Of a DNA stretch of 63,339 bases, positions 13,366 through 53,798 are shown in pieces. Under the pieces are notes generated by a model that did no database searches, had not been told where the DNA came from, and was given only the letters and a program-made list of their open reading frames with translations. The DNA lies in contig QHYK01000062.1 of assembly GCA_003224085.1 (NCBI GenBank), forward strand, positions 1-63,339, in the 5' to 3' direction. The stretch is from Acidobacteriota bacterium. Its GTDB lineage: Bacteria; Acidobacteriota; Terriglobia; Acidiferrales; UBA7541. Positions within the stretch are counted from its first letter, which is position 1; every line of letters begins with the position of its first letter. The position numbers were made by a program, and so were the translations under genes.

Positions 13366-14799
13366 TCAACCTCCAGATCCGGAAGGCATTCGTGGCCGGA
13401 TCTGGTTTGATGCTGGGTTTCCTAGCAACTGGGCAACGGCTTGTTTTGCTTCTCGCGCTTCCTTCGCTTCCCTGCTGCCCGTAGTGGTAAGGTCCTGCGC
13501 GCCGAATCCGACGCCAATTTTCTTGAGGAATGCCGTGGGAGGCTCGCCGCCGGCGAAGATCCACACAAAATCGTTGGGAATTTCGTGCAGCTTGCCGTTC
13601 ACATCGAGGACCACGGAATCCTTCCTGAATTCCACGGGGTTGGAGTTGAAGACCACTTTGACTTTGCCCTTGCGGATGGCTTCCTCGATGCGCTGAGCGT
13701 TGCGCTCCTTGATGCGGCTGAAGGCTTCCTTGCGGTAAGACAGAACAACCTGATTACCCACCTGATGACCGAGACCCATGGCGGCCTCGATGGCGCTGTC
13801 GCCGCCGCCCACCACTAAAATTTTCTTGTTCACATAATGGTCGGCCTCGATCAGGCGGTACATCACTTTGGCCAGATCTTCTCCTTTAATGCCGAGTTTC
13901 CGTGGGCTGCCGCTCTTCCCAATGGCCAGCACCACGTTGCGTGCGCGATACTGGCCTTTGAGCGTGCTGACAGTGAAAATCCCGTCTTGACCTTTCTTGA
14001 CATCCTCGACTTTCTCACCCTGCCGAACCTTGAAATCGGCGCGCTCGCAGACTTTCTTCCAGAAGGCGATCAAGTCTTCTTTGGATAGTTCGGTTTTCTT
14101 GAATTTTCCGTGCATGGGAAACTCGACTGGGCTGGTCATCACCAGCTTCTGGCGGGGGTATTTGGCGACCGTGCCGCCGATTTCGCCTTCATCGAGGGTG
14201 ACGTAATTGAGTTTATTCTCGATTGCACGCAGAGAGGCGCTGATGCCCGCCGGACCAGCGCCAACGATCACCACGTCATAGACGCCGGGAACAGGGCGCG
14301 CGCCTCCCAGGGAAGCTCTTCTCCGGACAATCGTGTCGATGCAATCTCGCCCTTGATTGACAGCGTTTTTTATCAGAGCCAGGCCGCCGAGTTCGCCGAC
14401 GATGAACATATTCTTGATGGAAGTCTCGTATTCAGGCGTTAGATACGGAATGTCGGCGCCCATGCTGGGGCTGGCCAGCACCATAGTAATTGCGCCAACG
14501 GGACAAACTTCGGCACAGAGGCTGTGCCCGATGCATTTGTATCCGTTAACGATCACCGCCTTGCCGCCGAGCATGGCCAGGACATCGCCTTCCGGACAAA
14601 CCATGGTGCACGCCGCGCAACCGATGCAGTAATTGGCGTCAATGTGCGGGTGCTGGGACTTAGGCCCCTCCGAAAACAGCTTTCCCTTTTCCGCCGCTTC
14701 GCGCGCGCGGGCCTCCATTTTCTTCTGCTTCCTGAGATAGTTCAGCATGAAGAGCAGAATGATGGCGACAGCAATGGCGAAGGCGATGGTGTTATCCAT
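13366..14799 (-). CDS. Ferredoxin-domain FAD/NAD(P) oxidoreductase, membrane anchored
   Basis: A 477-residue electron-transfer flavoprotein. The start at 14799 is chosen for its upstream AAGAGGA and because it begins with a membrane anchor (residues about 3-18, AFAIAVAIILLFML). A ferredoxin-like domain follows: CIGCAACTMVCP is a full CxxCxxCxxxCP cluster, while the second reads CIGHSLCAEVCP with His in the second position. Then come a thioredoxin-reductase-like FAD domain (VIVGAGPAGISA) and an NAD(P) motif (ILVVGGGDSAIEA). It could pass electrons between NAD(P)H or ferredoxin and membrane carriers. It is the last gene of the conduit operon, 10 bases after the lipoprotein-like gene. Confidence 0.85.
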   Translation of the reverse strand: MDNTIAFAIAVAIILLFMLNYLRKQKKMEARAREAAEKGKLFSEGPKSQHPHIDANYCIGCAACTMVCPEGDVLAMLGGKAVIVNGYKCIGHSLCAEVCPVGAITMVLASPSMGADIPYLTPEYETSIKNMFIVGELGGLALIKNAVNQGRDCIDTIVRRRASLGGARPVPGVYDVVIVGAGPAGISASLRAIENKLNYVTLDEGEIGGTVAKYPRQKLVMTSPVEFPMHGKFKKTELSKEDLIAFWKKVCERADFKVRQGEKVEDVKKGQDGIFTVSTLKGQYRARNVVLAIGKSGSPRKLGIKGEDLAKVMYRLIEADHYVNKKILVVGGGDSAIEAAMGLGHQVGNQVVLSYRKEAFSRIKERNAQRIEEAIRKGKVKVVFNSNPVEFRKDSVVLDVNGKLHEIPNDFVWIFAGGEPPTAFLKKIGVGFGAQDLTTTGSREAKEAREAKQAVAQLLGNPASNQIRPRMPSGSGG

Positions 14800-14809
14800 A
14801 GTCCTCTTG

Positions 14810-15322
14810 TTAGCGAAGCCGCTGATCCGACGAAGGGTCTTGCTTATCCTGCGGTGGATTCTGTGGCTGCGAAGAAACCTGCGGATGACCCGACGGGAGC
14901 GCACCCGGCGCCGGCGTCCCGGTCTTTAAGAGCTCGTTGAAATTGGGCATGCCGGTATGCACGTCCTGATTTTTATGCGGATTCTGAGCTGGGTCGGGGT
15001 GCTGAATCATGCCCCCAAGAGGCTGCGTTTTCAGCACCACCCAAGCGTCTCCTTGTTTTTCGAGGTTGTAAGCTACTTGCATGCCTGTGCCGGGGGTGCC
15101 GCCGTTTTTGGGGCGAAACTCCACTTCCGCATGAGCCTGGCTGCCCTTGATAGACAGGCTGCGAATATCCATGTCCATGGCGCTCATGTTCAGAGTGCCG
15201 ACGGCATTCAGGTGCTGCAAGATGCCAGAGCGGATGGCCGCGCTGTCACTTGCCTGCTTCTTGCACGCGCCGGGGCCGAGGAGCCCAGCGGCGAGTCCCA
15301 GGGCTAAAACTAAGCGTTTCAT
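14810..15322 (-). CDS. Small exported lipoprotein-like protein
   Basis: A 170-residue protein of unknown function. Starting at ATG 15322 it has a hydrophobic signal (LVLALGLAAGLLG) ending at a cysteine in GPGAC, a weak lipobox. A compact alpha/beta-like middle part follows (VEFRPKNGGTPGTGMQVAYNLEKQGDAWVV), then a Pro/Gln-rich tail. It may be a periplasm-facing lipoprotein. It sits between the cytochrome b gene and the flavoprotein gene on the same strand, so a role in the electron module is inferred from position only. Confidence 0.7.
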   Translation of the reverse strand: MKRLVLALGLAAGLLGPGACKKQASDSAAIRSGILQHLNAVGTLNMSAMDMDIRSLSIKGSQAHAEVEFRPKNGGTPGTGMQVAYNLEKQGDAWVVLKTQPLGGMIQHPDPAQNPHKNQDVHTGMPNFNELLKTGTPAPGALPSGHPQVSSQPQNPPQDKQDPSSDQRLR

Positions 15323-15440
15323 TGGTAGTGTCCTTTTTCTCTCCCCGCAGCGGGCCAAGCGCGGAACCATTCCGCCAGCGGCTTCGAGGTTCTCCGGACT
15401 AATTTCCTGTTTCCTGTGCCAACCGTCCCTGTCTCTCTCC

Positions 15441-16385
15441 TTAGATTCTATACCCCATGTAGAGGGCCAGGGCTATGTGGACGATGGCGAGTATAGCGAA
15501 GGCATAACTAAACGGGCGATGGATGACGTGCCAAAGCTGGAAGATTCGCTGCGTGCGGCTGAGAAAAACAATGCTTTTGGAAAGCTTGGCCTCGGTTTTC
15601 GCGACTTTGATGGCCCGTTCCAGCCGATGATCCCGGGTGGGCAGGAAGCCAAAGAAGGAGAAAACCCAGGCAAAAAAACCTGCTTGTTGCAATCGAACCA
15701 AGGAGGTCCTGAAAGGGCGCCTGAAATCGATGAAGAACATGGAGATCAGAGAGGCGACCACGGGGGTTTTGGCAACCTCTGCCGCGGAAGGCAATTGGTA
15801 CAAGGTCTCCGCGGAAAACCCAAAATTCGCCCGTTGCTCGACGAGCTCTTTTTTTAGTGCGGCTTCCTTCTCTTGAATTTCCCTCATGGAGAGTTCCGCG
15901 GCATTGAGACTGCGGGGAATTTGCGAATACAAGTAACGGCCGACAAAACCGCTCAAAGTCACCATCAGCATGCTCCAGAAGGCCATGCCGGCGATGTTGC
16001 CGAATTTAAAAGAGGAGTGAAACGCGATGATGACGGGAGCGGTAGTGCCAAGCACGATATGGAAATCCAGCCAATGGCGGGAATTCCCTTGCCTGCCGAG
16101 CCAGCCCCACTTTTTGCGAAGCGGATAAAGGTAAATGAGAAAGAACATCAAGACGCCTAACATGCCGAGCCGTATGCCAAGGGTCCCGCTGGGGCGAAGG
16201 AGATCATGCTTGGGGGAGAAAGGGCGCTGTGCGTAGCCGAGCATGTAGTAGTCATAACCGTAGCCGCCAATGACCAGCACGACGGCTATGGCCAGCATCC
16301 AGGCGAGGAACAAACGTGTGCGATGGCCCCTCTCGGCATCGTTTCGAGTCAGAACCGCACTGCGTACACTTGCTGATGCGCTCAT
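15441..16385 (-). CDS. Transmembrane b-type cytochrome, predicted two haems
   Basis: A 314-residue integral membrane protein, read from the ATG at 16385, which overlaps the previous stop (ATGA). About four or five membrane helices are visible. Two helices carry paired histidines at 14-residue distance: H109/H123 (HIVLGTTAPVIIAFH) and H289/H303 (HRPFSYAFAILAIVH). That is the classical arrangement for two stacked b haems across a membrane. A charged, coiled stretch (about 165-190) lies between. It resembles quinol-linked or ferric-reductase-like cytochromes b and would move electrons between the quinone pool or flavoprotein and periplasmic cytochromes. No exact family is recognised. Confidence 0.75.
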   Translation of the reverse strand: MSASASVRSAVLTRNDAERGHRTRLFLAWMLAIAVVLVIGGYGYDYYMLGYAQRPFSPKHDLLRPSGTLGIRLGMLGVLMFFLIYLYPLRKKWGWLGRQGNSRHWLDFHIVLGTTAPVIIAFHSSFKFGNIAGMAFWSMLMVTLSGFVGRYLYSQIPRSLNAAELSMREIQEKEAALKKELVEQRANFGFSAETLYQLPSAAEVAKTPVVASLISMFFIDFRRPFRTSLVRLQQAGFFAWVFSFFGFLPTRDHRLERAIKVAKTEAKLSKSIVFLSRTQRIFQLWHVIHRPFSYAFAILAIVHIALALYMGYRI

Positions 16386-17263
16386 GGCTTTGCCTCCAAA
16401 TCCTCCACGCGAATCGTCGCGCGGAATCTCTTGTATCCAGTAAAACGGTGAACATTGCGCCAGTGTTGGCGCGGCGTTTCGACGTCGATGATGGCGGAAA
16501 TGGGCATCCAATAGGATTCGTCGGGATCGCGGAAACGAATCAGGGCGTAGTGAATCTCGCTGCGGAGTCCTTGGAGCCCCAAATCGCTCAAGCTGGAATC
16601 GATGGAAGCCGCCAACTTAGCGACTGCGCCACTTTGGGGTTCGATCCAAATTGTTCCCGAGAGAGGAAGAGGATAATCGTGGCCACGCAGTTGGAGTGCG
16701 GCAGGAGAAGCAGCGCCCGGAACAGCTTTGAAATTGACCTTGAAGTAGGTGACACCATCCATGCTCTCCTGGCCGCCTGGATCGAACGCAAAGCTCGACT
16801 CATAGCTCGGATGCATGATGAGCAGCATGCTGGTGAAACCATTGGTGATGAGCAGGGTGCGCGAAGAATCGCGGAATGCGGCCTTGCGGGTGTCACGGGA
16901 TTCCACTAACTTCATAGACCCGCTGTTGGGGTTTGATTGGAGCTGATAATCGAAGACGGAGTCCTCGCGATAGTTGACCTTGCCATTCTTTCCCACAACC
17001 GCTTGAGAAACATTTTCCGTACAAACCACATTGGTGGCCTGCTCGAAGAACTTATCCACCTCGAGGCGCGCCCGCTGGAAAGCGGCCATCTCCGGGGGAA
17101 CGGGATTGGCCGGGGCAGCGGCAGGAGCAGGAGTTTCCGCGGGAGACGTCTGGCCATATACTGCACGGCAACACAAAGCCAAGACCGCCAAGCCAACCAT
17201 GGAAAACCAGCTGCGCTTGTGCCGGATCAAGAAGGAGCGATTCCCTGCGCAGCGGAGGCTCAC
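16382..17263 (-). CDS. Exported protein of unknown function
   Basis: A 293-residue exported protein of no family I recognise. The GTG at 17263 overlaps the stop of the barrel gene (GTGA), and a GGAGGA lies 8 bases upstream, so coupled translation from this codon is likely; a TTG at 17230 is an alternative. A signal segment (MVGLAVLALCCRAVYGQ) and a Pro/Ala linker are followed by a beta-rich domain with repeated hydrophobic strands (VTYFKVNFKAVPG, GTIWIEPQSGAVAKL, SYWMPISAIIDVE), suggesting a LolA/RseB-like beta fold. It overlaps the cytochrome b gene (ATGA), so it is part of the conduit operon. Confidence 0.72.
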   Translation of the reverse strand: MSLRCAGNRSFLIRHKRSWFSMVGLAVLALCCRAVYGQTSPAETPAPAAAPANPVPPEMAAFQRARLEVDKFFEQATNVVCTENVSQAVVGKNGKVNYREDSVFDYQLQSNPNSGSMKLVESRDTRKAAFRDSSRTLLITNGFTSMLLIMHPSYESSFAFDPGGQESMDGVTYFKVNFKAVPGAASPAALQLRGHDYPLPLSGTIWIEPQSGAVAKLAASIDSSLSDLGLQGLRSEIHYALIRFRDPDESYWMPISAIIDVETPRQHWRNVHRFTGYKRFRATIRVEDLEAKP

Positions 17264-19083
17264 TTGCGGAATCCTCCGAGGCGGTACCCAAACACGCTCG
17301 ACCATTGCGTGTAACTGAGGCTTGGACCGCTGTACCAACCGAAATTGCCCTGCAGGAAATAGCGAGGGCCCACGTTGAAATCGACGACCCCATTCACGAA
17401 GTTGGAGTTCGTGTTGTTTGAAAGCACGGTATTAAAAATCTGGTGGCCGCCGTAAACCTGCACGCGAAAGGAGTCGGTGAAGCTTTTAGAGAGGGAGAAC
17501 GATTGATATTTGCCGCTCCCAAAGGCGCTGTTGAATTTAGAATAATGAAGGTCCATTAACATCCCGGTCTTCCACAATCTTCCCAAGCTCAGGCCATAGG
17601 CTTGGTTGAGGGAGTTCCTCTTATCCGTGGTCGTTTTACTTTCTCCCAGGCTTGCAAACAAACCGATGTGCATGGGGAGCGCGATTCTGACGTCGCCGCT
17701 GAAGCCCTGGAAGAGGAATTGGTCAAGCAAGCCGGTGCCCAGCAATCGGGGATCAAAGGTGGGAAGTGTCTTGAAGTAATTGTGATTGACGCCGAAGCCG
17801 AACAGCTTTATGGGCTGGAAATGCAGTGTCGAAAAACTCTGTGAAACTTCCGTAGGGTTGCTGCCGCCATTGACCAGCGGGGAGGTGCGCGCTGCGTCGG
17901 CTTGCAGCGAATTATAAAAGGAAACGTATTGCTTCCAGGACCAAGTGTTTTCAAAGAACGCAAATTGCCGCGCCACCTTCCACTGGATGCTGGTCAGGGC
18001 CACTCCCACAGTGCTGTACATGCGCAAATGATCAAAGCTTCCGTACTCCACATTCACCAAAGTCCCGGCGACATGCTGGTTGGGGTTGTAACTCCAGGAC
18101 GATGGGTCGGGAGTGGAGCCCCCAAAAAATCCAAAAGTGACTTTTCTGGTGATCTTCCTACCAAAGTAACCGCCATCGATGGTGCTCAAGCTCGGGGCCC
18201 AAGGAATGAATAGACGCCCCACACCAACCGTCACAGGGGAGTACGGGCTTTGGTAGGTAAAGCCAATGCGGTAGGTGCGGTTCACCAGGTCCGTTAAGGT
18301 TAAGCTTTGAGTACCCGCGCCGGGAAGGCTTGTGCTGCTGCGACCGTAGTTGCCGCGCCAGGAACCGATAAAATTCCAGTACGTCCCGCCGATATTGTGC
18401 ATATCGGCGTCAAGAACTAGCCCCATCTGGCGTGAGGTAAAGCCGCCGGACTCTTGCGTGCCGCCGTAATTGAATCCGATGCGCCCCTGCAGGCGCTGCA
18501 GGGGACTCAGGCGAGTCACCTGCGCCTCTTTGGTTTCGCGAACCTCTTCATCCAACGGATCGCCGTAGCTAAAAGTCACCAGAATGGGATACTTATCCTG
18601 GTCCGCTACCAACTCCGACTCATGCCGGACCTGCACGCTCTCCGGAGTAAGAAATGCTGCTTGTCCGACCTTGAGTTCCCCGATGGTTTGCACCACGTCG
18701 CAGACAGCTGATGAATCGGAAACCGATGAAACCACCAATTCGGCTACGTGCGGGTAGCCGCGATATTGGATCCCTTCGGCAATCACTCCGTCCGGGGGAG
18801 CTTCCACGACGGAAAGCTTCATGCCCTCTTGCAGGTCCGCATTGCGCCCTGCGTCGATATACACTGAACCCTCGCTGACATACTTCACGCGGAATACTGT
18901 AGTTTTGCGAGCTTGCGCCGGGGGAGTGGCGGGAGCAGGGATGGCACCTTCTGGGGCTTGTGCATGAACCGGAACGGCCAATCCGGTGGCGAGGCAACTA
19001 AACGCAAGAGCTAATACAGCTCCACGGGTCGAAGAACCCCGGGGAAACAACATCTTCCCAATAATCCAGCCTGACACGTACAC
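17260..19083 (-). CDS. Outer-membrane beta-barrel, candidate conduit porin
   Basis: A 607-residue outer-membrane protein. After a signal peptide (AVLALAFSCLATGLAVPVHAQ) comes a roughly 130-residue N-terminal periplasmic domain (VSEGSVYIDAGRNADLQEGMKLSVV), followed by many alternating amphipathic strands rich in aromatic girdle residues (RIGFNYGG, YWNFIGSWRGNYG, LQVYGGHQIFN-like runs) to the end. The ATG at 19053 is an alternative start. It lies about 100 bases downstream of a secreted multiheme cytochrome gene. In porin-cytochrome conduits, a barrel surrounds a multihaem protein, and that role is inferred here from gene order and fold. Confidence 0.75.
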   Translation of the reverse strand: MYVSGWIIGKMLFPRGSSTRGAVLALAFSCLATGLAVPVHAQAPEGAIPAPATPPAQARKTTVFRVKYVSEGSVYIDAGRNADLQEGMKLSVVEAPPDGVIAEGIQYRGYPHVAELVVSSVSDSSAVCDVVQTIGELKVGQAAFLTPESVQVRHESELVADQDKYPILVTFSYGDPLDEEVRETKEAQVTRLSPLQRLQGRIGFNYGGTQESGGFTSRQMGLVLDADMHNIGGTYWNFIGSWRGNYGRSSTSLPGAGTQSLTLTDLVNRTYRIGFTYQSPYSPVTVGVGRLFIPWAPSLSTIDGGYFGRKITRKVTFGFFGGSTPDPSSWSYNPNQHVAGTLVNVEYGSFDHLRMYSTVGVALTSIQWKVARQFAFFENTWSWKQYVSFYNSLQADAARTSPLVNGGSNPTEVSQSFSTLHFQPIKLFGFGVNHNYFKTLPTFDPRLLGTGLLDQFLFQGFSGDVRIALPMHIGLFASLGESKTTTDKRNSLNQAYGLSLGRLWKTGMLMDLHYSKFNSAFGSGKYQSFSLSKSFTDSFRVQVYGGHQIFNTVLSNNTNSNFVNGVVDFNVGPRYFLQGNFGWYSGPSLSYTQWSSVFGYRLGGFRK

Positions 19084-19180
19084 TCATCACCCCAGTGATT
19101 GTATTTGTTACCCCAACGTCTTTGGCTTCTGTCCATCGACTACTTGTTGCCGAAGCCTGCGGAGCATCGGCATTCCGGCG

Positions 19181-21079
19181 TCAGCCCTTGTGGCAATTCA
19201 CGCAAATCGTCGCGTTATAGGTGTACCCGCCCACACCGTTGTGACGTGCATTCGTATTCGCCTGGTTCGTATGCGGCGAATTGCCGGTATGGCAAGCATT
19301 GATACAGGAGAAGATTGCGTAATTCGTCGAGTTGATATGGCAATCGCTGCAGCTCGAACCATTGTGCGGAATCCGGAACGCCGTATGGGTGAAAGCTGCG
19401 CCGGTCCAAGCCGTGGTCACCCAGGTGGTATGGCAGGACGTGCACGCAGTCGGATAATTCGCGGAAATGTGATTTGGCACGCTTGTTCCGTACGTCTGTG
19501 CATTCGTGTAATAGTTTTGATGGCAGCCATAGCAATCGGTAGTCGGAAATCCCGCACTGTAGTTGCCGCCCGTGTGACAGTCCGTGCAAGCATTGACCAT
19601 CGGACCGATTGCACCGGTAACGGTCGGGCGCGGCGCCAGCATGTGCGGACCCTGCAATGGGAACCCTGTCCCCGCGTGGTCAAACTTTCCATCTGACCAG
19701 AGAACGGTGTCGTGGCACGACGAACACATGGAAGTCGCGAATCCCGCGGTGATGTGGTTTGGCACGCTACCGCCCATAGTTGCCGTGCTCTGCCACGCGG
19801 TCCGGTGGCACCCATAGCAATCGGTGTTGGCCGCCGTCAGGTTGTAGTTGTTCCCAGTGTGGCAATCCGTACAGGCATTCACCTTGCCGGCTGGCGCTAA
19901 CTGGTGCGAGCCTGTCAAAGGCCAGCCCGTAGCCGAGTGGTTGAACACGACATTCGTCCATAGCGTCGGGTTATGACAAGTGGAGCAATTGGCCGCCGCA
20001 AAAGGTGCGCCCGCCGCAGCGTGCGTCGGGTTATTGGTCTGCTGCCACGTCGTTAGGTGGCATTGCGAATTCCCGCAATCGGTCGGCTGAATCTGCAGAT
20101 TGTAGTTGTTGTTGATGTGACAGTCGGTACAGGCTTGCACTCTGCCTGCCGGCGCTAACTGATGCGAATTCGTCAGCGGGAAACCGGTCGTCGAGTGGTC
20201 AAAATTCGCGGTCAGCCAAGAAACGGTATTGTGGCAGTTAGAACAAGTGGCGATCGGAAACACCGTAGGCGCTGCCGTGTGCTGAGGGTTGGTAGTCTGT
20301 TGCCACGTTGTGAGGTGGCACCCTGCATGTCCGCAGTCTGTCGCTGCGATTTGCAAATTGTAGTTGTTGCCCACGTGGCAGCTCGTGCAAGGAACATTCG
20401 CGTGCCCGTTGGTTAGAGGGAAGTTGATCGGTGGCGCGGCGTGGTTAAAGTTCGTTCCGTTGAACGTTCCCCCTACCCAACTGTCGAACGTGTGGCATGA
20501 TTCACAGGTTGTCGGGAAGTTAGCGACAACATGGTTTGGAACGTTCCCGCCGAGAGTCTGGGTTCTCTGATAATCAGATTGGTGACAGGAAATGCAAGCC
20601 GTCGAAAGCCCCTGGAACCGGCCGACCGCCGCGCTCTTGTGGCAGTCTTCGCATTGCAAAGCTGCGTGCACTCCGAGCAACGGGAAACGATTTTGGTGAT
20701 CCTTTACCTGTTGCACCGCAATATTCCACCCTTGGACGGTGTGGCAATCCGCACAATTCGTGCCCATCTTGTTTTGGTGCACATCGACGTGGCAGTCCTG
20801 GCAATTCTTTCCCACATTGGTGAAGACCGGTTTCACGTGGCATTGGCTGCATTGGACTTTTTCATGCATTCCGCGCAACGGATAACTCGTTTTGTTGTGG
20901 TCGAACTCGGGAACCGCTTTAATCGGCCGCCAAGCCGTGGCGGTGTGACAGTTCTCACAAGGGATGGCCAGCGGCCCATGCGGACTCTTAGTATTACCGC
21001 GTTGACTTTGCGGAAGAGCGCTACTTACGGGCCAGAAAAGGAGCAGCAGCCAGAACGTGAATTTGAAGTATCTAAACGT
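19181..21079 (-). CDS. Secreted 22-haem-motif c-type cytochrome, apparent ACG start
   Basis: A 632-residue multihaem cytochrome c. I count 19 CxxCH motifs plus two CX4CH (CGHAGCH, CGNSQCH) and one CX3CH (CINACH). Seven modules share F-[DNT]-H...PL..GxH...CxxCH, whose extra histidines are likely distal haem ligands. Reading upstream of the first standard start-like codon (TTG 20878) keeps the frame open through one more haem (CENCH) and a signal peptide (FKFTFWLLLLFWPVSSA). No ATG/GTG/TTG exists there, but ACG at 21077-21079 lies 6 bases after GGAGG. Start by ACG, a mutated ATG or a sequencing error are the options. It is the first gene of the conduit operon. Confidence 0.88.
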   Translation of the reverse strand, partial: TFRYFKFTFWLLLLFWPVSSALPQSQRGNTKSPHGPLAIPCENCHTATAWRPIKAVPEFDHNKTSYPLRGMHEKVQCSQCHVKPVFTNVGKNCQDCHVDVHQNKMGTNCADCHTVQGWNIAVQQVKDHQNRFPLLGVHAALQCEDCHKSAAVGRFQGLSTACISCHQSDYQRTQTLGGNVPNHVVANFPTTCESCHTFDSWVGGTFNGTNFNHAAPPINFPLTNGHANVPCTSCHVGNNYNLQIAATDCGHAGCHLTTWQQTTNPQHTAAPTVFPIATCSNCHNTVSWLTANFDHSTTGFPLTNSHQLAPAGRVQACTDCHINNNYNLQIQPTDCGNSQCHLTTWQQTNNPTHAAAGAPFAAANCSTCHNPTLWTNVVFNHSATGWPLTGSHQLAPAGKVNACTDCHTGNNYNLTAANTDCYGCHRTAWQSTATMGGSVPNHITAGFATSMCSSCHDTVLWSDGKFDHAGTGFPLQGPHMLAPRPTVTGAIGPMVNACTDCHTGGNYSAGFPTTDCYGCHQNYYTNAQTYGTSVPNHISANYPTACTSCHTTWVTTAWTGAAFTHTAFRIPHNGSSCSDCHINSTNYAIFSCINACHTGNSPHTNQANTNARHNGVGGYTYNATICVNCHKG

Positions 21080-21457: not shown

Positions 21458-22138
21458 TCATCCCTGAAATCGATAGCCGAGACCCGGAACCGTGACGATC
21501 CATTTGGGCTTCTTCGGCAGATCCTCCAACTTTTGACGGAGACTCGCCACGTGTACATCAACCGTGCGGCTGAATGTGCCGTCTCCGTATCCCCAAACCT
21601 CTCGCAGGATCTCATCTCGCGAAAGAGTCGTTCCAGCATGTTCAAGCAAGTAGCGCAAGAGTTGGAATTCCCGCGCCGTCAAATAGATCGGCTCGCCGTT
21701 TCTGGTTACCTGGGTGCCGCGAAAATCGACGCGAATCGTGCCGAATTTATGAACACCTTGTCCGCTTCGTGGAGCGGAGCGGCGTAATAGTACTTCGATC
21801 CGGGCCATGAGTTCCATGGTGTCGAATGGTTTGGTGACATAGTCATCCGCCCCGAGTTTTAGGCCGACCACCTTATCGACCGTTTGCCCGCGAGCGGTCA
21901 GCAGGAGAATGGGGGTGGCCAATCCCGCCAAGCGGATTCCCCGGCAGATGTCGAGGCCATTGCAACGGGGCAGCATGATGTCGAGAATGATCAAATCAAA
22001 GGGTAACTGAGTCGCTTTTTCATACCCTTGTTGGCCATCCGCGGCCAAGTCCACGACATAACCCTCGCTCCGCAAGCGATCTCTCAGGGTCATCCGCAAA
22101 GCTTCTTCGTCTTCAACGAGCAAGATATTTTCGTTCAT
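21458..22138 (-). CDS. OmpR-family response regulator
   Basis: A 226-residue two-component regulator. The receiver domain has the acidic pocket (E9, D10), phospho-acceptor D53 in LIILDIMLP, and the YVTKPF lysine. The C-terminal winged helix (about 130-225) shows the family features LTAREFQLLRYLL, SRTVDVHVASLRQKL and a GLGYRF ending. Its start overlaps the kinase stop (ATGA), so the two are made together. The gene ends next to the cytochrome operon, whose upstream DNA carries 11-bp-phased direct repeats, so control of that operon is a reasonable inference. Confidence 0.95.
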   Translation of the reverse strand: MNENILLVEDEEALRMTLRDRLRSEGYVVDLAADGQQGYEKATQLPFDLIILDIMLPRCNGLDICRGIRLAGLATPILLLTARGQTVDKVVGLKLGADDYVTKPFDTMELMARIEVLLRRSAPRSGQGVHKFGTIRVDFRGTQVTRNGEPIYLTAREFQLLRYLLEHAGTTLSRDEILREVWGYGDGTFSRTVDVHVASLRQKLEDLPKKPKWIVTVPGLGYRFQG

Positions 22139-23616
22139 TTTTCAGTGCTTCCCTCGGCACGAATCTCGACCGGCACTTGGGACTCGGCATCCACCGCAAT
22201 CGGCAGGTGCAGAGTGAAAACGCTGCCGGCACCGAGTTCACTTGCGACGCTAAGATGGCCGGCCATGGCTTCGGCTATGTTCTTTGCAACTGACAGTCCC
22301 AGCCCCGTTCCGTGAATCTGCTCGGCAACAACCGCAGGGCTGCGGTAAAACGGCTCAAAGATATGAGGCAGCTCTGGCTTGGCAATACCGATACCCTTAT
22401 CTGTTACCGCGATTTGGATTTCTCTGCGGCCGGGCAATTGTGAGCCGCCTGGAAAAGCTTTCACGCCAACCCAGCGGCTTTTCCCGCTATACTTTACGGC
22501 GTTTACTATCATGTTCTGCAAGCAACGCGCCAGGGCAGAAGCATCTCCCTTAACCGAAGGAAGCCCTGGCGCAATTTCAAGCTCGATGTGAAAACCCGCT
22601 GCGCTCACTAATTCCGAAGCTTGATGTACGACCGAACGCAAGATCTCGGACAGGTCCAAAATGCCGAACGCAGCGTGATTTTCCCGATCTTTCGTGGCGG
22701 AAAAAAGCAGGATCTGGTCTACTAGCTCGGTCATTTGACGACTTTGGCTTTGGATTGCAGCTCCATATTTCTTTACATCGTCCTTCTCCTTCACCAAACC
22801 ATCGGCGATATTGTCGGCGGCGGATGAGATGACCGCCAGGGGCGTGCGCAGCTCATGGGAGACCGAGGCTAGGAACTCCATCTGCAACCTGGCCAGCTGG
22901 ATTGCATTGCTCATGCGGCTTCGCTGGATGGCCCAAACGGAGGCCAGCGCTAATATGAGAGTGATGCCAAGAACCGCTCCGACGCGGATAATCGTGCGTC
23001 GCGAAGTGGCGTCGACGTTCGAAAGTTGCTGGGAAGCTTGCTGGTCATAGACCCGCTCGATCTCCGCTAGATCTTGGCGAACGCGATCAAAGGATTGCAC
23101 TCCCTGAGTGAGATCGAGGTCTACGGCTTCCTTTGTGCTCCCTTCAAGAATCGAAGCCAGGACTTCGTCCCGGACGTTCAGGTAGGTGGACCAATCGCGC
23201 TGAAGGCGCCTGCCGATATCCATCTCATTCGGGGTTCGCGCGTTCGCCAGGTACGCGGTAATTCCTTCGGATACAAGATGGTCCGCTTCGCGGGACTGGT
23301 CCGCGTATTTCACATGAAGATTGCTATCCGCCGTGCTTAATGCATAGAGCGTGCTTCGCCTGGTTTCCTGGGTTTGATACTGCAAGGCCGCTATTCGATG
23401 AAGGCTTAGAACCGACCCGGTATACATATTCTGTGAGTCTAGGTCGGCCCGGCGAAGATCGCGGATGGCAAACAAGCCGACCGCGGTGGCGGCGCATAAA
23501 ATAAAAAAAAGCAACAGCGCCGAACTGTAACGCGAGAATCTCCCCCAGCTGTGCGCCGGCCTTGAGCGCATGCCGGGCATCGCTTTTCTTGCACCGCTTG
23601 CCTTTTCTCGGCCCAC
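22135..23616 (-). CDS. Membrane sensor histidine kinase
   Basis: About 493 residues from a GTG at 23616, one base after the upstream stop and 9 bases after GGGAGA; an ATG at 23580 is an alternative. Two membrane helices (LLLFFILCAATAVGLF and GAVLGITLILALASVWAI) enclose a helical periplasmic sensor domain of about 150 residues resembling four-helix-bundle sensors (CHASE3-like). The HisKA box SVSHELRTPLAV carries the phospho-histidine (H254). The ATPase domain follows with the N box, DKGIGI and GTGLGLSVAKN. Encoded with a PstS-like protein and porin, it may sense their ligand. Confidence 0.93.
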   Translation of the reverse strand: MGREKASGARKAMPGMRSRPAHSWGRFSRYSSALLLFFILCAATAVGLFAIRDLRRADLDSQNMYTGSVLSLHRIAALQYQTQETRRSTLYALSTADSNLHVKYADQSREADHLVSEGITAYLANARTPNEMDIGRRLQRDWSTYLNVRDEVLASILEGSTKEAVDLDLTQGVQSFDRVRQDLAEIERVYDQQASQQLSNVDATSRRTIIRVGAVLGITLILALASVWAIQRSRMSNAIQLARLQMEFLASVSHELRTPLAVISSAADNIADGLVKEKDDVKKYGAAIQSQSRQMTELVDQILLFSATKDRENHAAFGILDLSEILRSVVHQASELVSAAGFHIELEIAPGLPSVKGDASALARCLQNMIVNAVKYSGKSRWVGVKAFPGGSQLPGRREIQIAVTDKGIGIAKPELPHIFEPFYRSPAVVAEQIHGTGLGLSVAKNIAEAMAGHLSVASELGAGSVFTLHLPIAVDAESQVPVEIRAEGSTEK

Positions 23617-23617
23617 G

Positions 23618-24172
23618 TTATCTGTTCTCCCGTGGTGGAACATGCAGCTTGTAGCCCTTGTCACCGGGAAGTCGTTCGTCGATGCGAATGACTTTGACGG
23701 TCTTATCTACATCGGAGGCTCGGAGATAGCCGATTGCGCCTGGCACATTGAATATGAACTTCCGAACGCCTTCCGGTGTTGCAAGAGTCTTGGGGGAAAC
23801 AAACACTTCCCCCGTAAACAGGCCGTGCAGGAAGTGATTGTTAAACTCGGTTTCATCCATGTGGTAGACGCCGCTGAGCACGGCAGCGCGCTCCGGCCAG
23901 CCCGGTTCCAGCATCACCAGCGTGATTCGTCGGCCGTTTGGCCAGTGACCACGTTCCCCTAGAAAAACCCGGCGTAGATCCGCCATGGATAAATCATTGA
24001 CCGGGTTGGATTGATTGACGACGATGGCCAGGTTCCGCTCAGCTGCCGGCAGCTCCGGAGCAGGCAGCTGAGCGAACCCCAACGAGCAGCTCAGCAGCGC
24101 TCCCCAAAGCAAAGCTGCACAAACCATAAAGAACAAGACATGGGCCGGGCGCGGCATCGGAAAAGACTTCAA
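23618..24172 (-). CDS. PstS-like periplasmic substrate-binding protein
   Basis: A short (184-residue) exported protein of the phosphate-binding-like family. A signal sequence (FFMVCAALLWGALLSCSLGFAQ) precedes the typical start of this fold: LAIVVNQSNPVNDLSMADLRRVFLGERGHWPNGRRI, here spread over residues 48-82, and later the GAIGYL motif. It is about half the length of transport PstS and there is no ABC permease nearby. The TTG start at 24172 overlaps the porin stop (TTGA). Genes of this type beside a porin and a kinase suggest an anion-sensing or capture module. The ligand is unknown. Confidence 0.85.
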   Translation of the reverse strand: MKSFPMPRPAHVLFFMVCAALLWGALLSCSLGFAQLPAPELPAAERNLAIVVNQSNPVNDLSMADLRRVFLGERGHWPNGRRITLVMLEPGWPERAAVLSGVYHMDETEFNNHFLHGLFTGEVFVSPKTLATPEGVRKFIFNVPGAIGYLRASDVDKTVKVIRIDERLPGDKGYKLHVPPRENR

Positions 24173-25536
24173 AACGTAAAGCCAATTTGCATTGCCAGGG
24201 CACTGACGGCAGGCTGCTGTCGAAGGGCAGTGTAGTCGTATTGCAGCTTCAAAGCCACCGACTCGCTCGCATCAAAGCGCACGCCCACAGAAGGGCCTTG
24301 CCGCAGTTTTATTTCCGGAAAAACCGGTTCCGCGTTTGAGGCATTCACATACTGATAACGAAAATACGGCCGGTAAGAACCAAATTTCTTGGAAACTTGA
24401 GTGTAAAATCCGGGAGTATGGAACACCCGTGCAGACCCAAAGGGAGCGTGGCGAATAACCAATGCCTCGTTCAGCCACTCAAAGCTCGGGCGGGCGAATA
24501 CGGCGTGAGCCGCAAGAATAGTCTCATCGATTCTCGGCAGATTGATGGGGGAAAGCAAATCTCGATAAGCCGAGAAACCCACTTGAAGACCCGGAACGAC
24601 TTCCGGTCTGGCAAAAAGAGCCAGATTGTAGGCCTTGTGATTCTGGTCATCGATTACGTTTTGCACCGGTTCCTGGGTCAGCGCCGAGCGTGAGGCGCGG
24701 CCGTTCCCTGCTTCGGCCACATAATGCAGTCCCAATCGCCCCGAAGGAACAAGTCCGGAGGCCGAAATGCCCACGCTATGAATGGGCAGAATTCCGCCTC
24801 GGTCTTCGAAGGCGAACAGGAAAGGCCGGTCGGCAGAGGTTTGAAACCAAGTGCTGTGATGGTAAGCCGTGTTGTAATAGCCGATGGCCGTGTGCCACCG
24901 GCCAGCCGCTAGCTTCAAATAGTCGCTCTGCGAATACTCAACGAGATAACGTTCGACATCCACGCTGAAGGTGTTGTTTTGACCCTTGGTCACGCCGTAA
25001 ATGTTGTCTGGCCCGCCTTCAAAGATAATCTCGCTCAAAAACTTGAATCTTTCCGAAATATCCGAAGTGACAAATAGGTTTAGCTGTCCGAGGGTAAAGG
25101 AAGTTGTATCGCCTCTCCGGTTGTCCCCATGAAGATTAATATCCCCAAAGCCGCGCATGCGCAGCAATGTCTTGCTGACATCCATGCGTTCCGGCACCGG
25201 TGGCTCCTCTTGCGGCTCAGTATCTTTCTCGGGTGCCGCAGTCGTCTGGCTAGCAACGGGGGCGGCGGGCGTGGAGGCCGTGGACAACTTCTGGCCTTCC
25301 AGTTGCTTCACCCTGGCCTCCAGTTGGTCTATCTTCTTCACTTTGGCCTCGAGTTCCGCAACTCGTTCGAGCAACAGTTGAATGGTCTCGGAATTCGAAG
25401 CTAGGGACGGCCCGGGCTCTTGCGCCAACAGCGCCGGCGCCGCCAGCAGAAACACCAGGAATAAGAGCAGCGCCGGTACGGGGAAGGTCGAGCGAGTTCG
25501 AATAGACATGCCCATTCTTTCAAATACTGGCTTCAT
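24169..25536 (-). CDS. Porin with N-terminal coiled coil (OprP-like)
   Basis: A 455-residue outer-membrane porin. The ATG at 25536 is preferred because AGGAGG lies 5 bases upstream. Signal peptide (LLLFLVFLLAAPALLAQ), then a coiled coil (about 50-85: ETIQLLLERVAELEAKV), a Pro/Thr/Glu-rich linker and a barrel with aromatic-rich strands ending in QIGFTF, a normal porin terminus with C-terminal phenylalanine. The barrel resembles phosphate-selective-type porins. It is first in a four-gene overlapping operon with the PstS-like protein, kinase and regulator. Confidence 0.82.
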   Translation of the reverse strand: MKPVFERMGMSIRTRSTFPVPALLLFLVFLLAAPALLAQEPGPSLASNSETIQLLLERVAELEAKVKKIDQLEARVKQLEGQKLSTASTPAAPVASQTTAAPEKDTEPQEEPPVPERMDVSKTLLRMRGFGDINLHGDNRRGDTTSFTLGQLNLFVTSDISERFKFLSEIIFEGGPDNIYGVTKGQNNTFSVDVERYLVEYSQSDYLKLAAGRWHTAIGYYNTAYHHSTWFQTSADRPFLFAFEDRGGILPIHSVGISASGLVPSGRLGLHYVAEAGNGRASRSALTQEPVQNVIDDQNHKAYNLALFARPEVVPGLQVGFSAYRDLLSPINLPRIDETILAAHAVFARPSFEWLNEALVIRHAPFGSARVFHTPGFYTQVSKKFGSYRPYFRYQYVNASNAEPVFPEIKLRQGPSVGVRFDASESVALKLQYDYTALRQQPAVSALAMQIGFTF

Positions 25537-25786
25537 GACTTCCTCCTGCAAAATGGCCAAAGGGAAAGCCGCGAATGTTCAACTATGAATAGGAAACGGT
25601 AGCGCGAACTAGGCGGAACGATGGCCTGTGTGTCGTGAAGGTATAGTAGCGTTGGGAGACGCTTCTGCCATCTTCGTTCCTGCGGCAAAATCCGCACCCC
25701 TTTGCGGGTTCACCCCAGTCACCTTGGGCAACATCTCCCGAAGGGCTTGTTACTGATGGAAAAGTGGCGCTTAGCACGCGTATCCT
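25537..25786 (-). other. Gap between efflux pump and porin operon
   Basis: No gene is seen. After the pump stop, three copies of a 5-bp arm (TGCGG, CCGCA, TGCGG at 25681, 25692 and 25703) can form two alternative small hairpins, perhaps a weak terminator. The promoter of the porin operon should lie here, but I see no consensus boxes. Confidence 0.3.
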
Positions 25787-33949: not shown

Positions 33950-36900
33950 TTAGTTGGCGTTGATGGTCATTGGGAACGCGCCGTTTGCCGTTGTAGTTGC
34001 AGGATTACGCCCGTCGATGCCATAGCCGTACAGGGTGAGGACTGCACGCCCCGCCAGGTTCGGTGTTGTTGCTGTTGCTCCCGCGGGTGGCGTGTAGGTC
34101 GCCGTGATTGTGCAGCTCCCGCCTGGCGTGGCTGGCGAGCCCGGCGCCACGACTCCTGGATTCACGGGGGTGCCAACCGCGCAAGTCCCACCGAGCGTCC
34201 AAGTTCCCGCGCCGCCCGCCGTGCCCGCGGCAGGTGTGAGCGTAATGGCTGATGGGGTGAAGGGGCCAGCATCCGGACTTGAATTCGCCGGTGTACCCGC
34301 CGGGCAGGTGTTGCTGGTTGTCGCCGCAAAGCAGATGTTCTCAATGTTGGTGATGGTCACGGTGCAGGTCACCGCGACAAGGTTGGCCGGAGTTCCCACC
34401 AACGACGGCGTGCATGTGATGGGGGTGTGTAGGACCGCAAACGTGTCGTGGCCGCTGAGCGGGATAGTCTGACTGACGCCGCCCGCAGTCACGATCAGAT
34501 TTGCAAGCCTCATGTTGTGCGACGTGCTGGTGGGAATAAAGACCACGTTGATCACGCAGCTTTCGCCCGCACCAAGTGTCGTTCCTGTGCACGTATTGGA
34601 TCGGATTGTGAAACTCGCCAGAGAGCATACACCACCGCCACCCACACCCGCGCACGTAAGCGTGGCGCTGTTGAATGGCAACGGGTTGATACCCGAGTTA
34701 GTGACCTGTATGTCTTGATCCACTGTTGTCGGGCTATAAACCGGGATGAAACCAAAGTCCACAAGTGACGGTGAGACAGTGAACTCTGCGCTACCGGTAG
34801 TGCCTCCAAACCTGACCGCGCCGGCATCAGTTGAAGAGCCGGGCTTCCTTGGAGTGTTAAAGAAGTCGTATGCAGGAGCGTCCGTGAAATTCGCTCCCGT
34901 GACCCTTGCCGCAGTTGCGGCCGTGATCGCGTAGTTTCCGAGCGGAAGGCCACCACCGTAATTCCCGTAGGGTCCGCCCACGACTGCGGGATTCGTCATC
35001 GACAGCGGGCCATATGCCAAGTTGACCCAGTTGTTGCCCTCGTCCACCGTAGCGGCTGGAGTCAGGTTAAAGATGGGGTTGGGCACGGTGGCGTCCGCAA
35101 TACCCGGAGGCACTTTCCAGCCAATCGCTGCCGCCGGAGTAACTCCCGCTGCCACTGCTTCCGGGGGTGTCCGCGAACCGTCGCAGTATGAACTGACGAA
35201 GCTCGGAGCCGTTGTGGAATTACCTGAACCACTAACACCTGAGCCGGCTGTCAACACCGAATCCGACGCAGAGAGGGTGGCCCCGCCACTATGGTTGCCC
35301 GGTCCCGTGTCGCCGCGTACGCCGACATCCCAATAGCTGGCGGCAACGCACTGGCCGGTTGTCGTCTGGCTCGCGGGCGCACCTCCGAACGCATTAACCA
35401 GAGTGACGACGTTCTGCTGGAATGCCGGGCTGAGGGCACCCACAGTGATGTTGTACGAACTGTTGTGCCAGATGATGTTGTTCTCCAGCTTTGGAACCGA
35501 GAGGGTCCGGCAATTCCCGTTAATGGCAGTGGTGCCAGTATAGTGACCCGGGGGGCAAACAACGGTAACCGCCGTCGGGCCAGTTGCGGGGAGATTGGCG
35601 GTCAAAACCGCGCTGTTCTGGATCGCCACCACTCCGGCCGGTTGTGGTCGCGTGGTGCTGCCGCATCCTGCGGTGCAAGGGGCGCCCGGCGCGCCCGGAG
35701 CGGGCGGCGGTGTGCTGGCTAACGGAGCCCCCATCGTGGTGAAGAGCGTTCCTGCCGAGGCAGTGCTAGAGTTGAAAGCAATCGTGTTGTTGATGATGTT
35801 CACCGCGACCGCGTCTGTCAGCGAGATTCCGGCTCCATCCCAGCCAGCCACGTTGTCGGTGATGATGTTGTTGGTGACGGTCACCGTGTTCCACAGTTTA
35901 GGATCCGTGGGGAAGGCGACCATATCCGAGCCGTTGACTGCCTGGAAGGCGATCCCGGCTCCGTTGCCGCTCTCCGCAGTGTTCCCCATGATGAGGTTGG
36001 CATTGATCACCAAGCCAGGACCGGCGCCGTCGCTCGTCGCAACGCCGCTAAGGGGGGTATTGCCCGGATTGCCGCCAGGTGCGCCGAAAGGCACGCAATC
36101 CTGGTCGATGGTAGTATTGTTGTTGCAAACTAAATCGGCATCGGGGGTGCCCATGACGATGATACCGCCGCCGTTAGTTGGGATCGTCGGGTTGGTGCTC
36201 TGATTGAATATGATCGTGTTGTGCTCGATGTCACCATTGTAGGTGAACCCGATGTGGCCGAGGCCGCCACCGTCACCGCTGCTCAGGTTGCCGCAGACCC
36301 AGTTGTAGTTGAATTTGTAGTAGTCGGAGCCGGTGCAGATGCTGACGCCACCTGCCCCCGCCGGCGTCGCCGAGAACAATTCGTCGCCGGTGGAGGAATT
36401 CAACGAGACATTATTGTTATGAATGTTTACATTCACGTTTTCGCAGTACGGCAGCACAATATTCGGCACAGGGCTGTCCTCGCAGGAGCCAGGAGGCGCA
36501 TTTAATAATCCCCCCCCTTGGGTGTAAGGCGAACCAAATTCGCCCTGACCGAGGTTGATGCCGCCCGAAAGCGTTCCAGCGTTGCTGATGATCCGGTTGT
36601 TGGCGACTTGCAGGTTATGCCCCCAGCCATGGATGAAGATGCCCCCGCCACCCTGCGAGCTGTTGGTGATGCCCAAACCGTCGATACTCGACGGATTGCA
36701 TGAGTAGCTGCTTGGGAACGGATTGGTGGTATTGGTGGTACTGGTGTGGCAGTTAGGATTGTCGTCGCCAACGGGGAAGTTACCTGTACTTTCCGGTTGA
36801 CTTCCCATGAGCAGCGTGGTCCCGGCCGGGAACCCAGCAAGCAAAGTGGGGTCGTACGGATTCGAGGGGAAATTCACACCCTTCGACAGCACGGTGATCC

Positions 36901-45043: not shown

Positions 45044-45076
45044 CGTCATTCCTTGTCGTCAGTTTGGCTCGTCCGA

Positions 45077-46753: not shown

Positions 46754-46766
46754 TGCCGTTCCCTAC

Positions 46767-48503: not shown

Positions 48504-48913
48504 GACGGTTGACCTCCTGTGCTGCAGTCACAAGCGGCCACCCGGCTTGCTCTACGTCGCGCGTTTGCTAGAAACAGAGTCGTAGAGCCGGGCAGCCTTT
48601 AATCCTGGTGCTGTCACTTTACGTTGCCTTGCAAGGACTTCTTTGTTGCGCCGCAAAATCGTAAAAAAAAATTTACATTTTTTGCTTCGCATCAAAAGGC
48701 CGCGAAATGCCTGGGTCAATGGTGAGAAAGGTAATGGTGGAGCTAGCGTCGTGGCAAAGATGTTTGCAGGCCGCGAAAAACCTCGGCCAACAGGCGGGCG
48801 CTAAAAGCAGAGCGAGAGGCGAACGAAAAAGGCACTTTTACCGTGCGAAAGATGTTCGCTCACAATCTTCGCTGCTCGTCGCGTGGTTGAATGCTATGCA
48901 AGTTCTAGGTCTA
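48504..48913. promoter_or_regulatory. Upstream region of copper-oxidase island
   Basis: A 410-base gap. It contains two perfect palindromes, CCTTGCAAGG (48627-48636) and TTGCG-C-CGCAA (48646-48656), and the AT-rich inverted pair GTAAA-6-TTTAC (48661-48676), about 120-170 bases before the oxidase start. They could be operators of the minus-strand oxidase transcript. No gene is supported in the rest. Confidence 0.4.
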
Positions 48914-49768: not shown

Positions 49769-50044
49769 GTGCAGTGCCTTTCTTTCCCACAACCTGGCCG
49801 ACCGAGAGCCGTGGAAATCGATTGTGTTTTGCGAGATGAGGGATCCTCGATCGGTTGAGATGATCCCACTCTCTCGGTTCACGCTGGGCAAAATAATACC
49901 CTCGAGCCCTTCGAACTCTTTGCTCTTGGACAAAGAAGGAGCAAAGGTCTCCTTCAAGCGGCCTCCGCCATGGCACAATCCACGGGGGAGAAAAGCTTCG
50001 TTCTCTCTAGTACGTAGGAATGTCGGACGGCCGAGGACATGGCC

Positions 50045-50797: not shown

Positions 50798-51163
50798 GTT
50801 TTAGCCATCCTCAATGTGCGTGCTATTTCTGGTTGAGCTTGACGCTCGACCAGCCGTGATTTGCGGACCACCCAGAGCAGACCGGAGCTCTTACAGAATC
50901 GAACCAGTGCCAAGGGCTTCCCGCTGAGCAACGAGAGCTGGTGCAACTAAGCGGCCAAATGCGTTGCCAAGGCAAAGCCCCTGTAAACCTTGTGATGTAC
51001 AAATGCTGCGGAAGTGACTGTAATCACGGAATATGAAAGGAGTTCCACAAACGGGAATTCCTTTTCACAGGATTTGCACTCGAAACCGGGATATCGGAAT
51101 GCAACCTGAGCCTTGGGATTGAGTGTAGCGTGATCTGTTTCGCCGGCGCGGGTTTGTGACCGG
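50798..51163 (-). other. Gap between regulator and secretin
   Basis: No well supported gene. A short minus-strand frame at 50947-51339 has a CKSC pair but overlaps the secretin C-terminus in another frame; a second at 50761-50946 overlaps the regulator start. Both are considered chance frames or remnants. Confidence 0.3.
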
Positions 51164-53702: not shown

Positions 53703-53798
53703 TTGTCTTTGCTCCTCGTCATAGTGGACGATACAGAGCTGTATCGTGCCGCCCTTACGGCTTTATCCGGGAGCCCACAGGTTGGCCCTTATGGCTAG
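53703..53798 (+). pseudogene. Truncated NarL-type response-regulator fragment
   Basis: A 31-codon frame, opening at a TTG, reads like the first strand and helix of a NarL/LuxR-type receiver domain: LLLVIVDDTELYRAALTAL. The acidic pair D-D is in place but the frame stops at once and nothing downstream resembles a receiver. The strand is opposite to the flanking genes, and its end touches the stop of the 23-haem cytochrome. Best seen as a decayed gene start; a chance match cannot be excluded. Confidence 0.4.

Follow-up and report, generated by a model that had tools for sequence, protein, structure and literature searches.

The window studied here is the entire 63,339-nucleotide contig QHYK01000062.1 of an Acidobacteriota bacterium (assembly GCA_003224085.1, genome of 6.8 Mb), and the question it raises is whether a run of its genes encodes a complete route for electrons across the cell envelope. 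The original prediction saw such a route in six genes on one strand and held that it may be a new type of conduit, with all levels from NAD(P)H or ferredoxin to the outer membrane encoded together. Our answer is that the genes and their relatives probably form a complete trans-envelope electron conduit, leading from NAD(P)H through the oxidoreductase fdox, a cytochrome b, the cytochrome cytA, and the cytochrome cytL with its barrel to the outside. We read the set as a porin-cytochrome conduit of a new variety, one that brings its own inner-membrane feed and whose wire is modular. The claim of novelty stands insofar as the set is conserved and the barrel matches no known conduit-porin model, but the conduit does not consist of exactly these six genes. 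Likewise, the levels from fdox to the barrel are found within the six, but cytA appears to belong to the conduit too and lies about 33 kb away.

Six minus-strand open reading frames (ORFs) were found at 13366-21079 as predicted. The two 4-base overlaps are GTGA at 17263-17260, between the barrel and exported-protein genes, and ATGA at 16385-16382, between the exported-protein and cytochrome b genes. The six genes and cytA are as follows.

19181-21079, minus strand: cytL, a modular multihaem c-type cytochrome of 632 amino acids with a signal peptide and 22 haem motifs (ACG start at 21079)
17260-19053, minus strand: outer-membrane barrel with 22 predicted strands, preceded by a signal peptide and a small N-terminal beta domain
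16382-17263, minus strand: exported protein whose fold is predicted to be LolA/LolB/DUF1329-like (its GTG start overlaps the end of the barrel gene by 4 bases)
15441-16385, minus strand: inner-membrane cytochrome b with two HX13H motifs (ATG overlapping the stop of the exported-protein gene by 4 bases)
14810-15322, minus strand: accessory lipoprotein-like protein, small and exported (11 of 80 related loci have a homologue)
13366-14799, minus strand: fdox, with an N-terminal transmembrane helix, a two-cluster ferredoxin domain and a YpdA/thioredoxin-reductase-like FAD/NAD(P) domain
53795-55912, minus strand: cytA, a 23-motif multihaem cytochrome, the usual upstream neighbour of cytL in relatives

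The listed ORF of the barrel begins with GTG at 19083, and an ATG lies at 19053. The true start of cytA is probably within its listed ORF, which begins with TTG.

Conservation across Acidobacteriota

GTDB contigs were searched with an alignment of 12 barrels, using peptide patterns from Acidobacteriota barrels, and the result bears on the spread inside Acidobacteriota. The search gave 146 stretches and 112 relatives, and the best 80 were kept as loci; loci without enough flank for testing are left out of the presence counts below. The best barrel match is QHYH01000090 (85% identity), and the nearest relatives found are soil metagenome-assembled genomes (MAGs) of the Acidobacteria 'gp2'. Conservation of the neighbourhood, which had been proposed as a check on the prediction, was borne out, as the set recurs in the best 80 of the 112 relatives. 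cytL lies directly upstream of the barrel in 63 of 63 testable loci. The exported protein is present in 72/77, the cytochrome b in 70/75 and fdox in 56/64 testable loci; these three are sometimes a few kb distant or on the opposite strand. The order cytA, cytL, barrel, exported protein, cytochrome b, fdox is seen in 40 of the 80 loci, and in three more with the lipoprotein-like gene added. The record titles of the kept loci are acidobacterial except for L105, titled Bordetella parapertussis; its cluster is acidobacterial and the title looks wrong.

The same association was seen among 297 Acidobacteriota genomes. The barrel was found in 19 of them: in 13 with E<=7e-100, in G023 split into two pieces, and in five as a distant match. 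The cytochrome b was found at E<=1.4e-100 in 12 genomes, each of which also has a barrel (a broken one in G023). The same 12 hold the exported protein at E<1e-84, as does G258, which also bears a barrel. Genome G122 has the barrel and cytL, without a strong match to the cytochrome b or the exported protein. Ten weaker cytochrome b matches had E from 1e-7 to 1e-25, and a more distant cytochrome b (E from 7e-70 to 2.5e-49) occurred in 21 further genomes, for which 20 loci were studied (G191 was left out). A cytochrome of the cytA or cytL type, or a piece of one, lies beside this distant cytochrome b in 18/20 loci, the exceptions being L158, at a contig end, and L159. A barrel is recognised by the family profile in 12/20, three times weakly (E from 3e-12 to 2e-8). 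The same core appears in rearranged gene order in other acidobacterial families. Among genome-sequenced isolates, Occallatibacter savannae AB23 (L115) has the full set including cytA.

A copy in another phylum

The five-part core of the set is also borne by a plasmid of Emticicia oligotrophica DSM 17448, a member of Bacteroidota (NC_018749.1, L121). Here ccsA, the cytochrome b, fdox, cytA (23 motifs), cytL (40 motifs) and the barrel stand in a row. fdox is 42% identical and the cytochrome b matches at E 9e-45; a profile match (E 3e-17) extends over the length of the barrel, and the C-cap can be recognised in cytL. Because the set and ccsA are plasmid-borne, lateral transfer is plausible. A cytochrome b match on a Methylophaga plasmid was not counted as the same system, as it covers only 34%; it adjoins a 2Fe-2S protein and a small cytochrome.

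Modular structure of cytL

The window cytL carries 19 CxxCH, one CX3CH and two CX4CH motifs behind a signal-peptide-like N-terminus, in agreement with the 22-haem-motif secreted cytochrome first described. All of its 44 cysteines sit in these motifs, and therefore it has no lipid anchor. Chance motifs were rejected as an explanation, since 1000 shuffles of the protein gave 0.7 motifs on average and 5 at most.

The number of motifs is 3n+1 in 54 of 58 cytL copies, with a range of 16-58; the 58 are those left after dropping ORFs that touch the locus start. This rule follows from the construction of the protein, which consists of a six-haem N-cap (motif spacing 36, 16, 16, 34, 19, 25-30), central three-motif units (spaced about 32-39, 16-18, 25-31) and a C-cap (about 31-34, 15, 26-34). 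Close relatives differ by whole three-haem modules. For example, the window copy has 22 motifs, that of L041 (barrel 82% identical) has 25 and that of L055 (81%) has 19, with spacing otherwise equal. The four exceptions are L043, L084 (18 motifs, C-cap missing), L095 (42) and L098 (23, irregular spacing). L043 has 18 motifs in the listed ORF and 17 more in two other frames and is thus frame-broken; at L043:874-3828 the three reading frames hold 18, 8 and 9 motifs beside an intact cluster. Extending the ORFs upstream to the previous stop gains a motif only in L056 (32 vs 31), before the likely start.

Repeat collapse during assembly was rejected as the source of the length variation for most copies. 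Exact DNA repeats inside the gene reach 14 bases in the window cytL and at most 72 bases in 55 of 60 genes; in L047, L070, L100, L112 and Emticicia there are repeats of 104-115 bases, and these counts could be affected.

The start of cytL is ACG at 21079, behind GGAGG and ahead of the signal-peptide-like stretch, and no in-frame ATG, GTG or TTG was found before 20878. The ACG start (21079-21077) seems common to the window and L041, L043, L044 and L049, in none of which a canonical start with a nearby Shine-Dalgarno-like match was found. These relatives, down to about 55-58% barrel identity, have a Shine-Dalgarno-like sequence before the ACG and a signal peptide after it. A conserved non-canonical start codon would be unusual.

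Pairing and fusion of cytA and cytL

A second multihaem cytochrome family, cytA, lies upstream of cytL in 52/80 loci (51 by independent family clustering) and in 49 of the 53 loci whose flank is long enough to reveal it. The four that lack it include L041 and L055, both closely related to the window. cytA has exactly 23 CxxCH motifs in 48 of the 52. The window copy also has 23 and is 49% identical to that of L084; because it lies about 33 kb from cytL, the six-gene operon there is a split version of the arrangement. The two cytochromes differ in composition. Charged residues make up 8.7% of cytL vs 22.3% of cytA, with cytA richer in 52/52 pairs, and the mean share of N, T, S, Q and G is 40.0% vs 27.0%.

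We chose by hand 13 further pairs from distant loci, 12 acidobacterial and one from Emticicia. L157 (cytL cut by the contig), L036 (13 motifs), L039 (10) and L038 (18, in an ORF without the C-cap) were omitted for lack of one complete partner; L039 and L142 come from one genome. cytL follows 3n+1 in 11/13 of these pairs, and cytA has 23 motifs in 10/13 and otherwise 20 or 24. In five distant Acidobacteriota loci (L141, L143, L146, L147 and L149), the cytA and cytL parts are one open frame, the separate cytA of L144 aligning to the first part and the separate cytL of L144 to the second. Contig ends truncate three of the fused frames but spare those of L143 (53 CxxCH) and L147 (51). The fusion suggests that cytA and cytL form one continuous path.

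The barrel

An AlphaFold2 model of the window barrel (mean predicted local distance difference test, pLDDT, 78.5; predicted template modelling score 0.60) has 22 predicted strands from residue 147 and a small N-terminal domain, which supports its description as an outer-membrane barrel. Small-solute porins have 16-18 strands, and the 22 predicted would exceed what is expected of one. The barrel was said to be outside recognised families, and profile searches agree. Both Pfam and NCBIfam contain an MtrB model. Among 60 barrels scanned against Pfam at E<=0.01, the matches were FlgT_C in 9, within the N-terminal domain, and two single stray ones, with none to the MtrB/PioB family; against NCBIfam at E<=0.1 the window barrel had no match. 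Known porin families were thus rejected by profile. Foldseek and VIA-align related the model to generic barrels, TonB receptors and ushers, and VIA-align grouped it with TonB-receptor barrels (Z 17.8, root-mean-square deviation (rmsd) 4.7, 339 residues); this likeness shows a generic barrel and not a function. MtrB is not among the structural matches listed, which is not evidence of its absence.

Two barrel genes deviate in structure. At L026:8777-11533 the N-terminal beta domain is doubled, with a long Pro/Ala-rich linker between the copies, while L034:9194-10231 (genome G023) lacks most of the barrel and is matched in two pieces, the cluster being otherwise intact.

The exported and inner-membrane proteins

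The cytochrome b has the four histidines predicted, H109/H123 and H289/H303, as two H-X13-H pairs that are invariant in 32 aligned proteins and assigned to hydrophobic (transmembrane) segments. Two such pairs are the haem-ligand spacing of the NOX/FRE (ferric reductase) superfamily. PF01794 scores 13.7 bits in the window protein, below the gathering cut-off of 28, and matches 9 of the 32 aligned proteins at E<=0.01 (best 4.8e-6).

The ferredoxin/flavin oxidoreductase was likewise recovered as described, combining a hydrophobic helix at the N-terminus with a ferredoxin domain of two clusters and a flavoprotein part of the Pyr_redox_3 type (157.8 bits vs a cut-off of 30). Its closest solved chain is 7a7b (E 2e-30), and it scores 177.4 bits against the TIGR04018 equivalog, below the cut-off of 339.9. 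The ferredoxin sites are CxxCxxCxxxCP and CxxHxxCxxxCP, the His being invariant in 28 aligned proteins, so the second site may possibly hold a His-ligated cluster. The Emticicia copy keeps the His of the second site, and in its first site Ser replaces one Cys.

For the exported protein, the statement that it belongs to no recognised family holds at the level of Pfam, where no family was matched in the window protein and a single stray match appeared among 47 proteins, but the predicted fold looks LolA/LolB-like. Its model (pLDDT 92.3) resembles DUF1329 (Z 11.1, rmsd 3.6, 185 residues), LolA3 (Z 10.4) and LolB (9.3); Foldseek gives LolA3 at E 8.6e-7, yet with a TM-score of only about 0.4. This protein probably serves assembly rather than electron transfer. 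The small lipoprotein-like protein is present and exported, but its lipobox is imperfect in the window (PGAC), and with homologues in so few loci the gene is dispensable for the conduit. PDB sequence searches returned nothing with the cytochrome (E<=0.01) or the exported family (E<=5), and one chance-level match each with the barrel and cytochrome b families.

Comparison with known systems

In porin-cytochrome conduits a barrel gene adjoins a multihaem cytochrome gene, and this was found in all 63 testable loci. The structure of Shewanella MtrAB has MtrB as a 26-strand barrel around the decahaem MtrA (PMC7198977, in the text available). The present set is like MtrCAB in that the barrel is encoded beside multihaem cytochromes, with periplasmic and outer components and the same conduit logic. 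On the other hand, it has 22 predicted strands and cytochromes of 23 and 3n+1 motifs, neither 26 strands nor a decahaem; its barrel has an extra N-terminal domain and no conduit-porin model match; and an NAD(P)H/Fe-S-flavin inner-membrane unit is encoded with it. Geobacter-type conduits and OetABI, a porin conduit in Desulfobacterota described as laterally acquired, also combine a porin with periplasmic and outward-facing cytochromes. By the description in the accessible text, OetB is a lipoprotein, which the window cytL cannot be, and no inner-membrane unit is named there as part of the OetABI cassette (PMC10553843).

Tandem three-haem modules in a single polypeptide, as indicated by the regular spacing and the 3n+1 rule, are shared with GSU1996. 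In the accessible part of PMC10138318, GSU1996 (4 x 3 haems) and GSU2210 (27 haems) are described as periplasmic 'nanowire' cytochromes. Unlike these proteins of 12 and 27 haems, cytL has 10-58, a six-haem N-cap, a conserved C-cap and a barrel gene alongside; the TIGR04257 triheme domain scores 15.3 bits in the window cytL, below the cut-off of 40. The cytochrome b resembles NADPH oxidase, ferric reductase and MsrQ, which have two HX13H-type pairs and an NAD(P)H-linked flavin partner. It differs from them in its weak Pfam matches, in having a separate Fe-S/YpdA-like protein as partner, and in an output that is presumably to multihaem cytochromes.

Related clusters have been published for Acidobacteriota, and the comparison is by the descriptions in the accessible texts. 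The first claim of porin-cytochrome complexes in Acidobacteria concerned Holophaga, which has porins of the MtrB and ExtB/E types (PMC7399161), and syntenous cytochrome/barrel clusters were described in marine Acidobacteriota MAGs and the metal-reducing Thermoanaerobaculum aquaticum (PMC8528874). Ghost-rock MAGs contain one group with a porin of about 20 strands and a ferredoxin-NADP+ reductase nearby in 7/11, and a second group whose cytochromes exceed 20 motifs; the cytochromes beside the reductase are given as decahaem, 4-5 kb, unlike the present ones (PMC13264449). All share multihaem cytochromes beside barrels with our set, and their accessible texts mention no such cytochrome b, LolA-like protein, pairing of 23 with 3n+1 motifs, fusion or Bacteroidota copy. 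Our literature search found no account of the architecture; subscription papers, preprints, figures and supplements were outside the search, and so part of it may be in print.

Proposed electron path and its rivals

The gene set, the motifs, the conservation, the module counts and the fusion are taken from sequence, and from them we infer the electron flow, its outward direction, the assignment to periplasm or surface and the physiological acceptor. At the inner membrane, the anchored fdox would take electrons from NAD(P)H or ferredoxin through FAD and [4Fe-4S] and pass them to a two-haem cytochrome b that appears to be built like the core of ferric reductase or NADPH oxidase. With such a feed, neither a quinone nor a CymA-type cytochrome would be needed. 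A CymA/NapC-type feed was rejected, as the window's own genome has no match to PF03264 (NapC/NirT), for which a control match was obtained in E. coli. The cytochrome b would then reduce cytA, whose nearly constant 23 haems may bridge the periplasm, and cytA would reduce cytL, a putative chain of three-haem modules sitting in or threading the 22-strand barrel and carrying electrons to or past the cell surface. The number of modules, and hence the reach, would vary freely between species. We give the periplasmic role to cytA and the free end to cytL because cytA keeps 23 haems while cytL varies by modules. At about 1 nm per haem, the value for GSU1996, the 23 haems of cytA would by this inference reach about 23 nm. 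The LolA-like protein probably helps to deliver or assemble the outer-membrane part. The acceptor would most likely be humics or the oxides of Fe(III)/Mn(IV), serving as an electron sink under oxygen shortage.

Several observations weigh against this conduit as drawn. In the window cytA is outside the operon, and in L041 and L055 it is not beside it. Both haem counts are broken in L144 and L152 (cytA 24; cytL 24 and 27), whose cytL is the form without the usual N-cap. The charge contrast is smaller in the 13 further pairs, with the sign kept, and nearly nil in L148 (21.6 vs 22.2%). No lipid-anchor cysteine or other surface signal was found on the window cytL. Five loci (L066, L075, L102, L104 and L107) keep cytL and the barrel without the exported protein, the cytochrome b and fdox, and they account for all missing exported proteins and cytochromes b. 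fdox is missing in 8 of 64 testable loci, and among the 20 distant ones fdox or a piece of it is seen in 11 and unseen in 9, several being cut by contig ends; therefore another feed of the cytochrome b is possible, for example quinol. The window's own genome has five COX1 genes, and Occallatibacter bavaricus, a relative of the full-set isolate, grew microaerobically and not anaerobically (PMC12935467, accessible text). Anaerobic respiration is therefore not established, and the growth pattern means that the role may be that of a low-oxygen electron sink instead. The reduced subtype with cytL and barrel includes the isolate AB60 (L104).

The rival accounts differ mostly in where the electrons go. 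The same conduit might run inward, with extracellular Fe(II), Mn(II), humics or another cell as donor and fdox making NAD(P)H. Every part is in principle reversible, the five COX1 terminal-oxidase genes would give incoming electrons an outlet, and two multicopper-oxidase-domain proteins lie 5-9 kb from cytA; but it is established chemistry that passing electrons from Fe(II) to NAD(P)+ is uphill, no pump is seen beside the gene set, and the listed records are mostly soil or groundwater MAGs of presumed heterotrophs, so we regard inward flow as unlikely. It also seems rather unlikely that cytL is a periplasmic charge store (capacitor) or a periplasm-spanning wire whose outer end is closed by the barrel, with nothing reaching the outside. 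The module pattern resembles GSU1996 (4 x 3 haems) and GSU2210 (27) (PMC10138318, accessible part), and no surface-targeting signal was seen on cytL. Yet the barrel accompanies cytL in every testable locus and is retained in the five reduced ones, 16-58 haems between related species fit a periplasm of fixed width poorly, and the composition is strongly unlike that of cytA.

The outer end may also have a task other than respiration, as an assimilatory or auxiliary reductase that supplies electrons to copper enzymes outside the cell or to Fe(III) in the course of iron uptake. The cytochrome b shares its HX13H pairs with the ferric-reductase superfamily, a flavoprotein of the NAD(P)H type is encoded alongside, no energy coupling is visible in a host that has oxidases, and one flanking family (6/80 loci) resembles a TonB-dependent receptor by eye. 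We nevertheless judge this quite improbable: roughly 40-80 haems per conduit would be a large cost for iron uptake, and no common iron-uptake or copper-enzyme family was seen by eye among the 25 commonest flanking families shown. Finally, the genes could be merely co-regulated and the barrel could serve as a secretion channel or an ordinary porin for solutes, as the likeness of its model to generic barrels, TonB-receptor barrels and ushers might suggest. The 22 predicted strands, the constant company of cytL (63/63 loci), the pair being kept when the other genes are absent, and the co-occurrence in two phyla despite changed gene order make this highly improbable.

We therefore keep the outward conduit as the preferred reading. 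A bolder form of it, possible but doubtful, is a quantised cable, in which a 23-haem periplasmic bridge would join a single-chain wire growing in three-haem steps (10-58) and extruded through the 22-strand barrel, powered by NAD(P)H without quinones. If true, such cables would exist in soil bacteria not known for metal respiration, and some lineages would have bridge and wire as one protein of more than 50 haems.

Significance

Electron paths across the whole Gram-negative envelope are usually assembled from genes scattered in the genome, whereas here two phyla carry, as a single set, a putative route that leads from NAD(P)H to the outer membrane. The family also offers a natural length series, with cytA nearly constant at 23 haems, cytL varied by single modules, and both fused in some species; therefore, which part bridges the periplasm and which reaches outside is directly testable. 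cytL would provide a naturally modular single-chain haem wire, and the set would extend electron-conduit biology to the abundant soil Acidobacteriota. Genome-sequenced isolates are at hand in Occallatibacter savannae AB23 and Emticicia oligotrophica DSM 17448.

Neighbouring genes in the window

Directly upstream of cytL (21458-23664, minus strand) are a response regulator and a 4HB/HATPase sensor kinase, a possible regulator of the set; related regulator families occur within about 11 kb in 9/80 loci and kinase families in 14/80. Upstream of this two-component system (23618-25560, minus strand) are a weakly PBP-like protein and, as judged by eye, an exported protein that resembles a porin and whose N-terminus is a coiled coil. 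Near cytA, the minus strand at 45080-52999 encodes two multicopper-oxidase-domain proteins, a Crp-family regulator and a secretin, and at 33950-45049 it holds an ORF of 3699 amino acids.

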